Both the position numbers and the translations under genes were made by a program. Of a stretch of 34,137 nt of DNA, positions 7,804 to 20,589 are shown one piece after another. Numbering within the stretch: the stretch's first letter is position 1; each line of letters starts with the position of its first letter. The notes beneath the pieces were generated by a model. That model saw only the letters and a list, made by a program, of their open reading frames with translations, was not told the origin of the DNA and made no database searches. The stretch comes from Actinomycetota bacterium (GTDB taxonomy: Bacteria > Actinomycetota > Actinomycetes > Streptosporangiales > Streptosporangiaceae): NCBI GenBank assembly GCA_003168215.1, contig PMSW01000095.1:78407-112543 (forward strand). The letters run 5' to 3'.

Positions 7804-9579
7804 TCAGGGAACGCCTGGCTGCCGGGCGATTTCATCCAGGTGCGCCGCAATGGCCGCTATCCGGTGACCGGCCCGGTGGCGGCGTGGCCCGGAGCCGCCC
7901 TGCTGCCACGGGCGCGGGCCATCGAGCGGCCGGTACTCCACGCCGGCCGCATCCAGACGGCGCAGGTGCGCGGTAAGCCGACCGTGCCAGTCCGGTACGG
8001 CTGCGGCCTGGACAGGAGCGGCTACGGCCGGCGCGCACGCGGCCTGGGCAGGAGCGGCTGCGGCCGGGGTGGCTGCGGCCGGGGTCGCCTGGGCAGGCTG
8101 GCCGGACCAGGCCGCCTCCGCCAGCACGCACGCCCGCGGGAAAGCCATGTACTCGAGGGCGCGGCTATCGCGGATGTACTCGGTCCAGAGCTGGAACTGG
8201 GTGCCGATCAGCCGCCGTGCGGCGTGCCCGGGCCAGCTGACGGCCGCTGCGCCCGGCGCGAACGCGGCGACATCCTGCACCGTTACCGGGCCGCCGAGCG
8301 CTAGCGGCTCACGCGCATCGTCGGCCTGGTAGTAGTCGAAGTAAGTGGGCACGACCGGGGTGGCAATGACGTCATGGCCTGCCTCGGCCGCGCGGCGCGC
8401 GATGTCCATGCCGCGCCAGGCCATCACGATGGTGTCCGGCCGCAGTGCGCCAGCTGGCGTTCCCGCACCGCTGGCGAAGCCCTCGTCCCAGACGACTGCC
8501 CTCGCCCCGAACCGGCCGGCGAGCATGTCGGCGACCTGCCGGAGAAACCTGGCATGCAGTTCGTCGGCGCTGCCCAGGCCGAGCTCGCGCCGGCAGGCCT
8601 CGATCGCCGGGTTGTCCCGCCAGCTGTCGAGCACGCACTCGTCCCCGCCGATATGCACGAACGGAGCCGGGACGGCGCTGAGCAGCTCACCGAAGATCTC
8701 CCCGAGGAAGCCGAGAGCCTCCGGCAGCGGCGACATGATCTGCGGGAATATGCCCCAGTCGGGGGACACCTCGTACCGCCCGCCCGGCACGGAGCCAAGG
8801 TACGGAAGCGCGGCCAGCAGCGCCGACGCGTGCCCGGGGACCTCGATCTCGGGGACGACGGTCACCATCCGCGCGGCAGCATAGGCGCTGATCTCGGCCA
8901 GGTCGGCGAGCGTGTAGTAGCCGCCGTGCGGGATTTCCTCGTAGACGGCAGGATCGGCGCTGTGGCTGATCCTGGACCTCGGCCGGTGCGAGCCGATCTC
9001 GTGCAGGGCGGGGTAGCGCTGGCTCTCGATGCGCCAGCCCTGGTCGTCGGTGAGGTGCAGGTGAAAGCGGTTCAGCTTGTGGGCGGCCAGCATGTCGATG
9101 AAGCTCAGCAGCACGGGCTTGGGGAAGAAATGCCTGGCCACGTCGAGATGCCCGCCGCGCCAGGACAGCGCGGGAGCATCGTCGATCTCCGCGCACGGCA
9201 GCTGCCAGGCCGGCCCCGGCACCGGCGCGGCGCGCCATGCCTCGTCAGGGAGCAGCTGGCGCAACGTCTGCGTCGCGTAGAACGCGCCCGCCTCTCCCCC
9301 GGCCGTGATTCGCGCGCCGACGGGACTGATACGAAGCTGGTATCCCTCGTCCGGCAGCCGCTCATCGATGTCCACGGCGATGCCGCCAGCCGCCGCGCCG
9401 CGCTCGCGGCCGGTTCCGGCCGGCCAGGGCAGCGCGGCAAGCACCCGCCGGACCGCGGCAGCCGCGCGCTGCGCGCCTGGCCCGGCTGTGATCGAGGTCT
9501 CCGTGCTGATCTCGAAGCTGCCGGGCTGCGGGCGGACGGATTTTGGATACGGCAGCAAGGCCGCGAGGCGGTCAGTCAT
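7804..9579 (-). CDS. GH20 beta-N-acetylhexosaminidase
   Basis: A 591-residue enzyme that removes terminal N-acetylhexosamine residues (chitin or wall-derived oligosaccharides). The GH20b-like N-terminal domain (about 10-130) ends with GAFYATQTLRQLL. The catalytic barrel then shows SWRGGHLDVARHF, HKLNRFHLHLTDDQGWRIE, VPEIEVPGH and the catalytic Asp-Glu pair in HIGGDE (D313, E314). No signal peptide is visible, so it may act in the cytoplasm on imported sugars. Between about 480 and 525 there is an Ala/Pro/Gln-rich insert (repeats of ATPAAA and APAQAA) that is not part of the family core. The start at ATG 9579 (MTDRLAAL) fits the family; a longer open frame running to 9819 only translates the antisense of the tRNA gene. 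GGAG lies just before the ATG. Confidence 0.9.
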   Translation of the reverse strand: MTDRLAALLPYPKSVRPQPGSFEISTETSITAGPGAQRAAAAVRRVLAALPWPAGTGRERGAAAGGIAVDIDERLPDEGYQLRISPVGARITAGGEAGAFYATQTLRQLLPDEAWRAAPVPGPAWQLPCAEIDDAPALSWRGGHLDVARHFFPKPVLLSFIDMLAAHKLNRFHLHLTDDQGWRIESQRYPALHEIGSHRPRSRISHSADPAVYEEIPHGGYYTLADLAEISAYAAARMVTVVPEIEVPGHASALLAALPYLGSVPGGRYEVSPDWGIFPQIMSPLPEALGFLGEIFGELLSAVPAPFVHIGGDECVLDSWRDNPAIEACRRELGLGSADELHARFLRQVADMLAGRFGARAVVWDEGFASGAGTPAGALRPDTIVMAWRGMDIARRAAEAGHDVIATPVVPTYFDYYQADDAREPLALGGPVTVQDVAAFAPGAAAVSWPGHAARRLIGTQFQLWTEYIRDSRALEYMAFPRACVLAEAAWSGQPAQATPAAATPAAAAPAQAACAPAVAAPVQAAAVPDWHGRLTAHLRRLDAAGVEYRPLDGPRPWQQGGSGPRRHRAGHRIAAIAAHLDEIARQPGVP

Positions 9580-9715
9580 GGTGCTCCAAGCTCTCGTTTC
9601 CGGGGCTGGGCAGGTACCGGACGCTAACAGCCCTGGCTCGCGGGCAACGCCCCGTATCCCGCGCTGCGCTAAGGTATGTAAGCCCGCCCAGGTCGGAGGC
9701 GGGCGCGGTAAGCAC

Positions 9716-9789
9716 CGGGACGTGGCCCAGCTTGGTAGGGCACTTGACTGGGGGTCAAGGGGTCGCGGGTTCAAATCCCGCCGTCCCGA
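9716..9789 (+). tRNA. tRNA-Pro (anticodon GGG)
   Basis: A full 74-nt cloverleaf: acceptor CGGGACG/CGTCCCG, D arm GCCC/GGGC, anticodon stem CTTGA/TCAAG with loop CTGGGGG (anticodon GGG, reading CCC/CCU), T arm GCGGG/CCCGC with loop TTCAAAT, discriminator A. CCA is not encoded. The inverted repeat GCCCGCC/GGCGGGC at 9682-9704 sits just ahead. Confidence 0.97.
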
Positions 9790-9806
9790 CGAGAACGAGC
9801 AGGTCA

Positions 9807-9839
9807 GAGGCCATTTCACCAGCCCGGTGAAGTGGCCTC
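9807..9839 (+). terminator. Strong hairpin terminator behind tRNA-Pro
   Basis: GAGGCCATTTCACC (9807-9820) pairs with GGTGAAGTGGCCTC (9826-9839) over 14 pairs with one G-U, loop AGCCC. A TTTT run follows at 9846-9849. It lies 17 bases after the tRNA. Confidence 0.85.
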
Positions 9840-10177
9840 AAGATCTTTTGACCGCACCTTGACCGCAGGATTTTGCGGCATTCTGCAGTATCTCGTGAAC
9901 ATCAGATGTGGCGAACGTCACGCCAGACACAACGCGAGTTAACATCCGACCCTTGCGCGACCGCCGACCGCTGGTGCCAGTCGGGCCTAATGGTGGCGCT
10001 GCGAGAATGGGTGTCGCGGTGATCTTCTCGGGGGTGAAGTGCGTCGTGGCCCGCGAGCTGGCTGGCCGCAGTTCCGGTCATATCCCGAGAACCGGAACTA
10101 CACGCGTAAGGCTCGGATAGCCTGCTCGGCGTGAACCGCCGTGTAATGACGTGGCACAGGTGGCCGCCGGCGAGCAC
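9840..10177. other. Gene-free stretch ahead of the MraY homologue
   Basis: No gene is supported here. The frame on the minus strand across 9902-11305 is the antisense shadow of the MraY gene. TTGACCGCA is repeated directly at 9848-9856 and 9859-9867. The stretch carries the 9-bp inverted repeat at 10070-10099 described separately. No second copy of the tRNA 3' end was seen, so there is no sign of an attachment-site duplication. Confidence 0.5.
10070..10099. promoter_or_regulatory. 9-bp inverted repeat upstream of the MraY homologue
   Basis: AGTTCCGGT (10070-10078) and ACCGGAACT (10091-10099) are perfectly complementary around a 12-base centre. It lies about 80-100 bases before the possible starts of the gene. 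It fits an operator for a dimeric regulator or a leader hairpin. Confidence 0.5.
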
Positions 10178-11269
10178 ATGCGAGGGGCCGCCCGGTTGAA
10201 GACGATCATCGTCGCCGGGGCGGTGGCGCTGCTGGTCGCGCTGTTCGGAACGCCGCTGTTCACCAGGCTGATGCGGCGGCACGGCTATGGCCAGCCGATC
10301 CGGGTCGAGGGCCCCAAGTCGCACGAGACCAAGCGCGGCACGCCCACCATGGGTGGCACAGTCTTCGTGATCGCGGCGGTGATCGGCTACGTGGTAGCGC
10401 ACGCGGCCACCGACGATCCGTTTACGCCTTCGGGCGTGCTGGTACTGCTGCTGATGGCGGGACTGGGCCTCGTCGGGTTCATCGACGACTTCCTCAAGAT
10501 CTTCCGGCAGAACAGTACGGGGCTGCGCAGCCGGGCGAAGCTGGCCGGCCAGTTCGTGGTGGCGGTGGTATTCGCGGCGGGGGTGCTGCACTATCCGGAC
10601 AAAGTCGGACTGACGCCCGCTGACGCGTACCTTTCCTTCCTGCGGGACTTCGGCCCGGCTATCGGCACGCTGCCGTTCATCATCTGGGCAGTCATCATGG
10701 TGGCCGGCACCTCCAACGCTGTGAACCTGACCGACGGGCTGGATGGTCTGGCCACTGGATCCACAATCCTGGTGCTGGCCGCTTACGTGCTGATCGGCAT
10801 CTGGCAGGAGCGCAACGACTGCATCAACTTCCTCTCCTCGCAGTGCTACCCGGTACGTGACCCGCTCGACATGGCGGTGGTCGCCGCCGCGGTCCTCGGC
10901 GCCTGTTTCGGATTCTTGTGGTGGAATGCGCCACCGGCCAAGATCTTCATGGGCGACACCGGGTCGCTGGCCTTGGGCGGAGCGCTGGCTGGCCTCGCCA
11001 TCTGCACCAAGACGCAACTGCTCCTGCTGATCCTCGGCGGCCTGTTCGTGATCATCACCCTGTCTGACGTGATTCAGGTGAGCGTCTTCAAGGTGACCAG
11101 GAGCAGAACCGGGCGAGGGAAACGGGTCTTCAAGATGGCGCCGCTGCAGCACCACTTCGAGCTGGTGGGCTGGGCGGATACGACGATCCTGATCAGGTTC
11201 TGGCTGATCTCCGGTCTGTGCGTGGCGCTCGGCCTCGGGATCTTCTATGCGGCCTGGCTGCAGACCTGA
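10178..11269 (+). CDS. mraY: MraY-like phospho-N-acetylmuramoyl-pentapeptide transferase
   Basis: A polytopic enzyme that transfers phospho-MurNAc-pentapeptide from UDP to undecaprenyl phosphate, making lipid I. About ten membrane helices are seen. Family motifs: [15 protein letters not shown] at 46-60, VGFIDDFLK with the Asp pair near 103-104, [30 protein letters not shown] and [13 protein letters not shown] (the HHH-type active-site loop). The insert [10 protein letters not shown] before [10 protein letters not shown] is somewhat longer than in Streptomyces MraY. The start is uncertain: ATG 10178, or TTG 10196, which matches the family N-terminus ([10 protein letters not shown]) and has GAGGGG 8 bases ahead; GTG 10151 is less likely. 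The usual division/cell-wall cluster genes (murF, murD, ftsW) are absent around it, so this may be a second copy. Essentiality is not implied. Confidence 0.9.
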
Positions 11270-16828: not shown

Positions 16829-17983
16829 TTATACTGGCTGCTGTTGGCTGCTTTTCCTGCCGAGCTGCCACGTCAGGTGCGGGGAGCCCCGGCGCGATAG
16901 CGCGGCGAGGGCAGGAACCCGCTGCTGGCGGGTCGGCAGCAGCGCAACGTGACGCCGCCATCGCTGCCGGTCTACCGCCCAGGCCCTGAGGTAGCTTTCG
17001 CACAGGACTGGCGTGATGAGCGCCAGGCGGCCCAGGGATCCTTTCAGCGCAGCGATCTTGCGGGCCTTATCATTTGGCTCGAGGGTGTCCCCCTCTACCA
17101 TCTCCAGCACGCCCTCGACGAACTGACGGCGCTTCATCAGGAACCTGGCCCAGTGATCCTGGTCGGCGTCAATGATCGACCGGTCCTGATCCAGCAGCCA
17201 GTAGATCCCTTCGGCCAGTACATCGCCCAGCTCTTCGGCGCGGGCTCGTTCAGGATTCCTGAACGGGTCGTAGGGAGACTGGACAACTTTTCCGGTAACA
17301 GCGGTGGGCTGCAGCCATTTGTAGCCATCCAGCAGGAAAAACCAGTCATCGTTGTAGATGTCGGGAAAGAACGAGTTGCTGCGATTCACCTCGACGGCGA
17401 GCGCTCCGCCGCCGATGAACGACTGCTGTTTTCCACCAGCCTGCCGGTAGGCATGGCAGACGACCGAATTGTCAGGAAAGCCGGTGATCTGCAAGCCAAC
17501 CGCATTGTGGGTGTCCAGCAGGCCGCTCGCCTTCTGCACGTCATCCGGATTCAACGCGGTGATGTCATCGTCGACGAAGAGGATGCGCGACCAGCCGAGC
17601 ATGTGGCTGAGCATGAGGGCCAGGTTGCGCTTTGCGCTCAAGTCAGTCCGGCGTGCAAAGACGGTTCCGGCGAGCAGGCGGGAGGTCTCCCAGCACGGCA
17701 GCCGCAGCCGTGCTGGCTCTGGCACGTCGATGGCGATCAGGTCGATGCCAGCCGGAAGGCGCTGTGTCGCCTCCGCTGCCGACGTCCATTTCCCGCTGTG
17801 CAGCGTTACCAGAGTGCAGTTCAGGGCCAGGGCCAGGTTCGCCGCCTCGGCTAGGTGCGCCGGGCGCCGGGCAGTCGGCACGATGATGGCGTTGACTCCT
17901 TGCCGGCCCGGCGAGGAGTCAACGGGCGACCACAGCAGGTCCCGGTGTGAGCCATGGTGATAGAGCGCCCCGTTGCCCAGCAC
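16829..17983 (-). CDS. GT-A fold glycosyltransferase-like protein
   Basis: A 384-residue protein read as a GT2-like transferase. Near residue 33 a beta strand AIIVPTARRPAHLAEA opens a Rossmann-like nucleotide-binding half. SAKRNLALMLSHMLGWSRILFVDDDITAL follows with a DDD metal/sugar-nucleotide motif at 138-140. Then GGGALAVEVN and FFPDIYNDDWFFLLDG come at about 191-220, where an acceptor-side catalytic acid is expected. No transmembrane helix or signal peptide is seen, so it should be cytoplasmic. GTG 17983 is preferred. It lies four bases after the TAA of the XRE-type gene, so it is coupled; an earlier GTG at 18019 overlaps that gene and has no ribosome site. The donor and acceptor sugars are unknown. 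The pairing with a regulator that has an unassigned C-terminal domain is the notable point. Codon use is less GC-biased than the flanks. Confidence 0.75.
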   Translation of the reverse strand: MLGNGALYHHGSHRDLLWSPVDSSPGRQGVNAIIVPTARRPAHLAEAANLALALNCTLVTLHSGKWTSAAEATQRLPAGIDLIAIDVPEPARLRLPCWETSRLLAGTVFARRTDLSAKRNLALMLSHMLGWSRILFVDDDITALNPDDVQKASGLLDTHNAVGLQITGFPDNSVVCHAYRQAGGKQQSFIGGGALAVEVNRSNSFFPDIYNDDWFFLLDGYKWLQPTAVTGKVVQSPYDPFRNPERARAEELGDVLAEGIYWLLDQDRSIIDADQDHWARFLMKRRQFVEGVLEMVEGDTLEPNDKARKIAALKGSLGRLALITPVLCESYLRAWAVDRQRWRRHVALLPTRQQRVPALAALSRRGSPHLTWQLGRKSSQQQPV

Positions 17984-17987
17984 AGGT

Positions 17988-19082
17988 TTACTCGGCCCAC
18001 TCAAAGAGCGTGTAGTCACTAATGGTCCAGTCTGGGGTCAATGTCGCTCCGTTGACGATCGGCACACGGGTCAGGATGCAGTAGGAATCGCTGTCGCCAA
18101 ACCGTGATCGCAAGTACTCCGCATTGCGGTCACGGAATCTGGTATCTGTCAGCGCGCGGACAGCGCCATAGGTGCCGCGACCATACATGCCACTACAGAT
18201 GGTAACAGTCCGCTTCCGGTTGAAGGGATTTACCGCGCGGGCAAAGAGCGCGACATCTTCGAGGAGGATTATCTGGTCGCCCAACTTTTGCAGGACTGGC
18301 CTGTGCTGAGTCGTTGTCCCGTTTTCCTCCACTTCGAAATACTGTTCCCTCTCAGTGTCCCAGTCGGCTACCTGCTGCACCGGCAGTTGAAGCTTCTCCA
18401 GCGTTGAACTTGTTAGCGTATTCCAGTCAATGCCACCCAGCGTGACCAGGTGCGAAGTGTAGTCGTCACGCGCAAGTTTGTCGGCAATTCGAAGGTTCAC
18501 CTGATTAGCCGGATTGGCAGCACGAAGGTGACCGTACAGTTCGAACAGCGCGTCGAGCTCAGAGTAGGTCAGGAGCTCGATGTAGTCGGGATCCTTGACG
18601 TTCGTGTAGGGGATCTGGTCCAGCATGGGCCGCGGCCACTGGGCGCAGACGATCGTGATGTCGTCTCCATCCCTGAAGCGCCAGTGCCCGGCACCCAGCG
18701 ACGCATCTACCTGGCCGGATCGGCCAGGTTCCGCGGAGGTGGCGCCAGCCCGCAGCGCAGCGTTGCGCAACTGCGTCAACTCCCGCTTCAGCTCGTTCAT
18801 GGTCTGCTGTTCCTCATCACTCATGTCCTGCAAGCTGATGAGGTGAGCTGCATCCGCGTCGAAGGAACGCGCTGTGGCGAAGAGCGCAGCGTAGGCATCC
18901 AGCCGTGACAGGGGCGGGATCCGTGGATTGGTCTGTGACTCCCACGATGAGATGAGGGGAACGCTGACCCCGCCGAGTGCCTGCGCGAGCTGGGGTTGGG
19001 TGATCTTCCTACCTGGCCAGCGATCTTCCCGGAGAGCACGCAAACGCCGAGCAAGAAGCTGCCGCGGATCCTGACTGTCCAC
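17988..19082 (-). CDS. XRE-type regulator with unassigned C-terminal domain
   Basis: A 364-residue protein. Residues 7-72 form an XRE/Cro-C1 helix-turn-helix (RRLRALREDRWPGRKITQPQ, then LAQALGGVSVPLISSWESQT). Residues 88-112 are a short coiled coil. Residues 130-364 form an alpha/beta-looking domain: strand DITIVCAQ, a helix SELDALFELYGHLRAANPA, HLVTLGGIDWN at 211-221, LLEDVALFARAVNPFNRKRT, and CSGMYGRGTYGAVRALTD at 296-313. This layout suggests a ligand- or nucleotide-binding domain, but I do not recognise the family. GTG 19082 follows AGAGG with about 7 bases spacing. A perfect CTGAA-G-TTCAG palindrome lies 18 bases upstream of the start, a likely autoregulatory site. The glycosyltransferase gene starts directly after its stop, so the two are probably made together. 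Confidence 0.75.
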   Translation of the reverse strand: MDSQDPRQLLARRLRALREDRWPGRKITQPQLAQALGGVSVPLISSWESQTNPRIPPLSRLDAYAALFATARSFDADAAHLISLQDMSDEEQQTMNELKRELTQLRNAALRAGATSAEPGRSGQVDASLGAGHWRFRDGDDITIVCAQWPRPMLDQIPYTNVKDPDYIELLTYSELDALFELYGHLRAANPANQVNLRIADKLARDDYTSHLVTLGGIDWNTLTSSTLEKLQLPVQQVADWDTEREQYFEVEENGTTTQHRPVLQKLGDQIILLEDVALFARAVNPFNRKRTVTICSGMYGRGTYGAVRALTDTRFRDRNAEYLRSRFGDSDSYCILTRVPIVNGATLTPDWTISDYTLFEWAE

Positions 19083-19099: not shown

Positions 19100-19110
19100 C
19101 TGAAGTTCAG
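19100..19110. promoter_or_regulatory. CTGAA-G-TTCAG palindrome ahead of the XRE gene
   Basis: An 11-bp perfect palindrome 18 bases before the XRE start. The same half-sites recur, more widely spaced, at 19298-19302 and 19316-19320, so a shared operator for the XRE protein is plausible. Confidence 0.5.
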
Positions 19111-19179: not shown

Positions 19180-19340
19180 CGCAAAGGCAACGGGACGCCT
19201 CCCTGGGGCTAGAGCCAACAGGCCATTAAGCGAGGGTTGATGAACATGAAGAGGGTAGAGGAAACTTAAGGAAGGCCGCTGGATAAGGGAGGCAGATCTG
19301 AATACTTTACTTAAGTTCAGAAGAACACGCAAAGGCAACG
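19180..19340. repeat. 13-bp direct repeat CGCAAAGGCAACG (two copies)
   Basis: CGCAAAGGCAACG occurs at 19180-19192 and 19328-19340. The second copy abuts the large hairpin that begins at 19341. Between the copies lie ACTTAAG (19264 and 19309) and the CTGAA/TTCAG half-sites, so this is a dense regulatory stretch between the divergent XRE and small membrane genes. Confidence 0.55.
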
Positions 19341-19478: not shown

Positions 19479-19766
19479 GTGAACACAATAACTCCCCATC
19501 TGGCGGGGGCAACTGTCCTCGCCGTACGTCAGCTGATCTACCTTCGCCCTTCGGCCACTGCCCGGATGGCCGCCGACGCGGCCGGGGGGATGGCCCTGGC
19601 AGTTGTGGTCCTCGTCGTTGCCTTCCTGGCAGCGATGGCCTGGGCCGCGCGTAGCCTGGCCGCCCTGCTGTCTGAATTTCTGCAGGTAGCGGCCGCGATG
19701 ACGTCCGTCTTCTTCGCCATGGTGATAGCTGTCGTAGTGGCCGTAGCTCTGCTAGTCCACCACTAG
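19479..19766 (+). CDS. Small two-helix membrane protein
   Basis: A 95-residue protein with an N-terminal amphipathic stretch (VRQLIYLRPSATARMAADAAGG), a long hydrophobic helix (MALAVVVLVVAFLAAMAWAAR), a polar turn, and a second helix (FFAMVIAVVVAVALLVHH). GTG 19479 has AAGGAAG a few bases ahead. The composition and layout resemble the small Spd-type membrane proteins of actinomycete conjugative elements, but similarity is too slight to claim that; no transfer genes are present. It has its own terminator and a structured leader, so it is a separate regulated unit, divergent from the XRE gene. Function unknown. Confidence 0.6.
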   Translation: MNTITPHLAGATVLAVRQLIYLRPSATARMAADAAGGMALAVVVLVVAFLAAMAWAARSLAALLSEFLQVAAAMTSVFFAMVIAVVVAVALLVHH

Positions 19767-19799: not shown

Positions 19800-20103
19800 C
19801 CGATGGGCGCGAAGAGGCCGTGCTAACGCCCCGCCAGGCGAGGCTCGTGACGACCAGCAGACTCGGGGAACCCTCTGCAGAGCCTGCCAATCGTCTGGCC
19901 CGCCGGGTACACCAGATCCTCTGACCTAGCGGTAGCGGGCACGGCGAACGCGCCAGGTGAGCCGGCAAACCCACTACGTTCCGCCTTAACGCATATATAA
20001 TTAATTATTAACGAACTTCACTATAGAAAGTGAATTCATCTAGGGGGGCTGGCTACAACCAGAGGTTGCCAGCCCGGCCAGCACCATGTGAAAATCGGTG
20101 TTT
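19800..20103. promoter_or_regulatory. Gene-free stretch with AT-rich promoter region
   Basis: The first 180 bases show nothing beyond a CTCTGCAGAG palindrome (19873-19882). From 19985 to 20035 composition becomes extremely AT-rich, with TATAAT at 19996-20001 (no good -35), TAATTAATTA, and TTCACT (20017-20022) pairing with AGTGAA (20029-20034). This likely drives the GNAT gene and may bind a regulator or nucleoid protein. Confidence 0.45.
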
Positions 20104-20589
20104 ATGCCTTATATCAAGCTCCTTGCCCGCGACGAGTGGCATAGGCTGCGGGACATCAGGCTATCCGCACTGCATGAATCACCTCACGCATTTTTGTCGA
20201 CGTATGGGCGGGAGCAGGCGTACAACGAGGATCAATGGCGAGCCGAATTTACCCGGGGCGAGTGGAATATCGGCATCATTGGCAGCAGGGCAGTCAGTCT
20301 TCTGGGCACTACCCATGAGTCCGATACGCCTGTTCATGAGTGCTATTTAGAATACTTGTGGGTGTCACCCGAATGTCGAGGTTCTGGCGTCGCCTTCGAT
20401 ATGCTCACCATCATCCTTGACCGCCTGCAGACCTCCGGGGTGCGGACTGTCTTTCTATGGGTACTCGACGGTAATGACACCGCTATACGCCTGTATAAGA
20501 GGGTCGGCTTCGTCAGCACCAATCACCGCCAGCCGTTGTCAGCGGACCCGGAGCGCAGCGAGGAACGGATGCAGCTGGATCTGGGCTGA
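20104..20589 (+). CDS. GNAT family N-acetyltransferase
   Basis: A 161-residue acetyl-CoA-dependent acetyltransferase. The core shows YLEYLWVSPECRGSGVAFDML (the acetyl-CoA pyrophosphate loop, RGSGVA standing for the usual RGxGxG/A) followed by LDRLQTSGVRTVFLWVLDGNDTAIRLYKRVGFVST, the typical last helices with the Asn and the aromatic-Gly-Phe turn. ATG 20104 is preferred; GTG 20098 is two codons earlier. Neither has a clear ribosome site. Codons are clearly less GC-biased than the neighbours, so it looks transferred. The substrate is unknown. Confidence 0.8.
   Translation: MPYIKLLARDEWHRLRDIRLSALHESPHAFLSTYGREQAYNEDQWRAEFTRGEWNIGIIGSRAVSLLGTTHESDTPVHECYLEYLWVSPECRGSGVAFDMLTIILDRLQTSGVRTVFLWVLDGNDTAIRLYKRVGFVSTNHRQPLSADPERSEERMQLDLG

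Follow-up and report, generated by a model that had tools for sequence, protein, structure and literature searches.

Glycosyltransferases of family GT75, which include the NDP-pyranose mutase MtdL and the RGP/UAM proteins, have a GT-A fold with a DDD motif, a KRN or RRN motif, and a sugar-contacting aspartate in the nucleotide-binding half; in MtdL this aspartate is Asp87, and we use it together with Arg90, the autoglycosylated Arg159, Arg257, and Asp260 as points of comparison (PMC9937993). XRE-family one-component regulators carry an N-terminal XRE helix-turn-helix (HTH), have a palindromic operator in their own promoter, and adjoin a co-oriented enzyme gene. Among the components of conflict systems, surveys name glycosyltransferases, GCN5-like proteins, and cNMP cyclases (PMC7159879), and they report as effectors glycosyltransferase families other than the one described here (PMC7159879, PMC8195603). 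The module described here consists of a known regulator type and two protein families outside Pfam, and we found no description of its gene pair in the literature on its promoter motif and related systems.

A conserved regulator and glycosyltransferase gene pair

The window, a stretch of 34,137 nucleotides from a Streptosporangiaceae contig, encodes on its minus strand a 364-residue XRE-type regulator (REG, 17988..19082) and, directly after it, a 384-residue glycosyltransferase predicted to be cytoplasmic (GT, 16829..17983). As the first-pass annotation had read it, the TAA of REG (17990-17988) is followed after four bases (17987-17984) by a GTG at 17983. Further in-frame GTG codons lie upstream, at 18004 and 18019; we place the start of GT at 17983 because an HHGSHR motif then falls eight residues in, as it does in relatives. 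The same annotation noted a lower GC content in the codons of the pair than in the flanks. This holds locally, where GC3 is 0.71 for REG and 0.78 for GT and most genes of the window lie at about 0.85-0.9, and is marginal across relatives (0.871 for the module, 0.894 for its flanks; module lower in 52 of 80 loci). Elsewhere in the window, a gene that by eye resembles an MraY phospho-MurNAc-pentapeptide transferase (10151-11269) lies outside any visible dcw cluster, and a tRNA-Pro (GGG) gene (9716-9790) overlaps the start of a long GH20-like open reading frame (7804-9819), the true start of which must be further in.

REG and GT belong together well beyond this genome. Each was found in 49 of 299 order-level genomes, both were found in 43, and six genomes carry REG alone and six GT alone (Fisher p = 9e-39). 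A profile search of GTDB contigs returned 201 GT-encoding loci, and the best 80 of these 201, from rare actinomycetes, were analysed: REG lies directly upstream of GT on the same strand in 77 of the 80, usually with an overlap of 4-22 bases. The hosts are Streptosporangiaceae including Nonomuraea, Pseudonocardiales (Amycolatopsis, Lentzea, Kibdelosporangium, Saccharothrix, Kutzneria, and Actinophytocola), and Micromonosporaceae (Dactylosporangium, Asanoa, and Actinoplanes); Actinomadura is also represented. The REG and GT trees mirror one another (r = 0.84; null maximum 0.12), and in both the Nonomuraea modules split into the same two lineages, which occupy two different neighbourhoods. The expectation that the pair would recur in other actinomycete genomes was thus borne out, with the two genes kept together while their surroundings, several unrelated gene neighbourhoods, vary. 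Co-occurrence, gene order, and the mirror trees rule out chance neighbours.

Mobile origins were considered and rejected. No REG relative was found in viral contigs, no GT in phages, nothing relevant in PHROGs, and nothing significant when the C-terminal domain of REG was compared with the viral structure library BFVD. A plasmid-borne module was set aside as well, since GT is absent from plasmids and REG appears only as a fragment, in a chromosome-like 11.9 Mb Nonomuraea record.

Folds and conserved residues of the two proteins

The XRE HTH proposed for REG from the outset maps to residues 10-71 (18870..19055, minus strand), where Pfam HTH_31 and HTH_3 match. In the window protein the HTH_31 match (E 7.8e-5) falls just under the Pfam cut-off, and the same model matches 20 of 24 REG relatives with a best E of 5.3e-8. 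The coiled coil that had been predicted to follow is borne out as a short coiled helix. The remainder of the protein, an alpha/beta C-terminal domain (CTD) of 234 residues (131-364; 17991..18692, minus strand), contains the previously remarked motifs HLVTLGGIDWN and CSGMYGRGTYGAVRALTD. Besides the HTH, REG matches no Pfam family, and the CTD matches no curated family above cut-off; NCBIfam models gave none above their curated cut-offs for REG or GT, with a weak sub-threshold NadS match for REG, and a search of solved structures with REG returned no match. The CTD did not turn out to be the domain of a known plain-regulator family. Among 296 genomes of the phylum it was seen with the module alone and never outside it, which led us to reject the idea of a widespread domain. 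REG resembles XRE-family one-component regulators in its HTH, its promoter palindrome, and its adjoining co-oriented enzyme gene, and differs from them in this private CTD.

An AlphaFold2 model of the CTD built with 80 sequences is a confident alpha/beta fold (pLDDT 94.5). Its nearest solved structure is BcsB, and the match is weak (Foldseek E 8e-4 to 1e-2, TM ~0.42); other weak matches are the N-terminal alpha+beta domains of glycoside hydrolases (GH67, GH84, and GH115) and an archaeal S-layer anchoring domain. The CTD fold is thus weakly like these domains and the flavodoxin-like domain of BcsB, but with TM values of ~0.42 or lower, no sequence similarity, and a different cellular context. 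The SLOG or nucleoside-binding fold that the first-pass annotation expected did not appear: the Foldseek PDB matches listed for the CTD include neither a SLOG domain nor a deoxyribosyltransferase, and a SLOG-type sensor was rejected. Near-invariant polar residues (GGxDWN, E-D, ICNG, RGxYG, TD, and TPDW) cluster at predicted strand ends in the model, as they would around a ligand site. Because of this conservation and the architecture of the protein, we infer that the CTD senses a ligand.

GT contains both motifs that had been read from it, DDD (residues 138-140; 17564..17572, minus strand) and NDDWFF (211-216). The four residues that open the latter (211-214; 17342..17353, minus strand) form an N[ED]DW motif in which D213 is a candidate catalytic base; DDD and N[ED]DW are invariant in 84 of 84 family members, and KRN and D114 are likewise invariant. 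GT has no Pfam match, and a search of solved structures gave just two sub-significant ones. Its AlphaFold2 model (pLDDT 93.9) has a GT-A fold of the metal-dependent type, and MtdL is both its best Foldseek match (E 5e-7) and its best PDB profile match (E 0.003), with an alignment that spans the half of the protein running from KRN to DDD. In this half, D114 appears to correspond to Asp87 and R119 to Arg90 of MtdL.

Despite the aforementioned similarities to GT75, namely the fold, the DDD and KRN motifs, and the sugar-contacting aspartate, the two families part company beyond DDD. The C-terminal half of GT is unrelated by sequence, with no detectable similarity to RGP/GT75 proteins, and PF03214 (RGP) matches neither GT nor its 84 relatives nor anything in its own genome. 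Residues 141-210 gave no alignment to MtdL and contain no invariant arginine, R180 being present in 79 of 84 members. Pairings made by eye in this half tentatively place D213 at Asp260 and Tyr210 at Arg257 and leave no invariant arginine for Arg159; the equivalents of Arg159 and Arg257 thus do not appear to be kept. GT therefore lies outside the GT75 family, though MtdL is its nearest relative. Since Arg159 seems to have no invariant counterpart in GT and Tyr210 seems to stand where MtdL has Arg257, we prefer, at low certainty, a transferase that uses an acceptor over a mutase. Similarity to the TET-associated glycosyltransferases (PF20691) is weak: seven of the 84 members show it below threshold (best E 0.0054), none passes the cut-off, and the window GT has no match at all. 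This is too little for membership, and no TET/JBP or DNA-modification genes were noticed nearby.

Operator-like palindromes and interchangeable partners

The region ahead of REG carries a conserved palindrome, CTGAAsTTCAG, some 22 bp from the start codon and, often, another copy roughly 200 bp upstream of that codon. When k-mers were counted without bias, CTGAAGT/ACTTCAG turned up in 72 of the 77 regions upstream of REG (expectation 3.2) and TGAACTTCA/TGAAGTTCA in 56 of the 77 (expectation 0.1). The refined motif, CTGAAsTTCAs followed by another TGAA about 11 bp on, gives a 20-bit PWM. Proximal sites (57 loci) sit at a fixed distance, with a median centre 22 bp before the REG start; distal sites (52 loci) have a median position 204 bp upstream, and their distance varies less when measured from REG (sd 39) than when measured from the divergent gene (sd 133). 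Both sites are present in 38 loci and at least one in 71 of 77, with no clear helical period between them. The window has both in the divergent promoter of REG: CTGAAGTTCAG at 19100..19110 (23.7 bits), centred 23 bp upstream of the start, and CTTAAGTTCAG at 19310..19320 (22.7 bits), 233 bp upstream. Apart from these two, the 34 kb contain a single match that exceeds 12 bits, one of 12.4 bits at 2137.

The simplest reading is that the palindrome is a candidate autoregulatory operator bound by REG; it could belong to another regulator. TGAAsTTCA is about 115-fold denser in REG promoters than in the rest of the loci, and the motif is found beside none of five GTs without REG and not beside one REG without GT. 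At one further locus, a strong site (L163:5848; 26.9 bits) precedes a GT that has no intact REG adjoining it and a REG relic nearby. In the 4.6 Mb genome, exact CTGAAsTTCAG sites number three, about the background or control number; the regulon is therefore probably local, and a wide regulon was rejected.

The gene across the divergent promoter comes in alternative forms. In 44 of 77 loci it encodes a protein of 70-150 residues with two or three transmembrane (TM) segments; the window has one of 95 residues (19479..19766, plus strand; 2-3 predicted TM segments), which is under purifying selection (dN/dS ~0.33 against L104). In 22 of 77 loci it is instead a class III nucleotide-cyclase-like protein, a family that matches the class III cyclase Ma1120 (E 4.7e-5) and keeps both metal aspartates, but has an aspartate at the position of the catalytic asparagine and, unlike Pycsar cyclases, is not paired with a Pycsar effector; the window itself has no cyclase. 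In two Actinomadura loci (L107:2887-4410 and L108:2-1411) the divergent gene fuses TM segments, a cNMP-binding domain, and the cyclase-homology domain, and the match of the L107 fusion to Pycsar models is confined to its cNMP-binding domain. In five Amycolatopsis loci (L168, L173, L180, L182, and L183) a CRP-type regulator gene adjoins the cyclase-homology gene.

A GNAT acetyltransferase is the other frequent partner, inside the module in 54 loci and adjoining in most. It lies downstream on the same strand in Streptosporangiaceae, convergent in Pseudonocardiales, and upstream in some Micromonosporaceae. The window GNAT (20098..20589, plus strand; Pfam Acetyltransf_1, E 1.1e-13) lies past the small membrane gene, is loosely associated, and belongs to another subfamily than the usual module GNAT; locus L109 carries a related one at the same place.

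Proposed mechanism and competing explanations

Our best overall explanation, to which we give equal weight for and against, is that REG autoregulates a small sensing and glycosylation module. REG would be a one-component regulator that uses its HTH to bind the TGAAsTTCA palindromes of its divergent promoter and so governs the REG-GT(-GNAT) operon, probably along with the divergent gene. Through the CTD it would sense a small molecule inside the cell, for which a sugar, a nucleotide-sugar, or a pathway-linked product is plausible, and this would switch its hold on the DNA, derepression being the simplest case. GT would be a cytoplasmic, divalent-metal-dependent enzyme that uses an NDP-sugar to glycosylate an acceptor in the cytoplasm. 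The same acceptor or a related one may be acetylated by the GNAT, and the divergent membrane or cyclase-like protein may link the module to the membrane or to cyclic nucleotides, as an input or an output. The Pseudonocardiales GNAT, being convergent and hence not co-transcribed, counts against the operon that includes it. The original suggestion of a sensor controlling a cytoplasmic transferase fits this layout and has gained a conserved operator, but lost the nucleoside-binding fold.

Sensing coupled to glycosylation seems the most likely purpose, with detoxification or conflict possible. If GT were instead a GT75-like NDP-pyranose mutase, it would make a furanose sugar nucleotide and transfer nothing to an acceptor. 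The structural and profile matches to MtdL and the retained KRN, DDD, and D114 fit such an enzyme; the unmatched C-terminal half and PF03214, the lack of an invariant arginine between DDD and NEDW, and Tyr210 at the Arg257 position make it very unlikely. A role in detoxification or self-resistance, in which REG senses an antibiotic-like molecule and induces GT and GNAT to inactivate it by glycosylation and acetylation, would account for the combination of a cytoplasmic GT, a GNAT, and a ligand-responsive-looking regulator. The GNATs are weakly similar to drug acetyltransferase models, but far under the cut-offs of the resistance models, and the window has an MFS gene after GT, but relatives do not keep one there. 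The well-known macrolide-inactivating glycosyltransferases, moreover, have a GT-B fold, and we regard this role as unlikely.

A conflict module would have GT, alone or together with GNAT, act inside the cell as an effector on a macromolecule of the host or of an invader, with REG silencing it until a trigger arrives and the small membrane protein or the cyclase serving as a further effector or signal. The case for it draws on the wider GT family. One GT homologue (L099:6310-9267) forms the C-terminal domain of a 985-residue WXG100_2 protein with a layout like that of secreted polymorphic toxins, and membrane-anchored GT paralogues, about 28% identical, adjoin NB-ARC NTPase genes at three loci (L143:7688-12457, L157:7084-10332, and L163:1660-5173), some of them with TPR-like repeats. 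These contexts hint at effector use of the family in conflicts, and the cyclase-like neighbours, the L107/L108 fusions, and the component types (PMC7159879) point the same way. Against this stand the lack of any PADLOC match for REG, GT, the GNATs, the small membrane protein, or the stand-alone cyclase, the absence of GT from the phages and plasmids searched, and a chromosomal position conserved within Nonomuraea and Amycolatopsis rather than in defence islands. Intact GT genes without REG (L105 and L106), and divergent ones likewise, led us to reject a strict type II toxin-antitoxin pair. We consider a conflict module unlikely. Separately, a small open reading frame that looks WXG100-like by eye lies beside extra GT genes in Lentzea aerocolonigenes (L143:12547-12903).

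The first-pass annotation had left a choice of conflict, signalling, or modification system, each of which may apply: signalling is strengthened by the nucleotide-cyclase neighbour in 22 loci, whereas conflict gains circumstantially only, from the WXG100 fusion of one GT and the paralogues beside NB-ARC NTPases. A broader proposal, which we consider unlikely, is that actinomycetes have a signalling or conflict system not described before, in which an XRE regulator bearing a novel sensor domain controls effectors of a novel GT-A family and modules of membrane-protein or cyclic-nucleotide type are interchangeable, with members of this GT family also present in secreted WXG100 proteins and in NB-ARC systems. 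Under our preferred explanation of autoregulated sensing and glycosylation, filamentous actinomycetes have in the REG-GT pair a regulatory module that recurs, is self-contained, and has a precise operator, and through which a new intracellular reaction of sugar transfer, together with the signal that would control it, could be sought in organisms rich in secondary metabolism.
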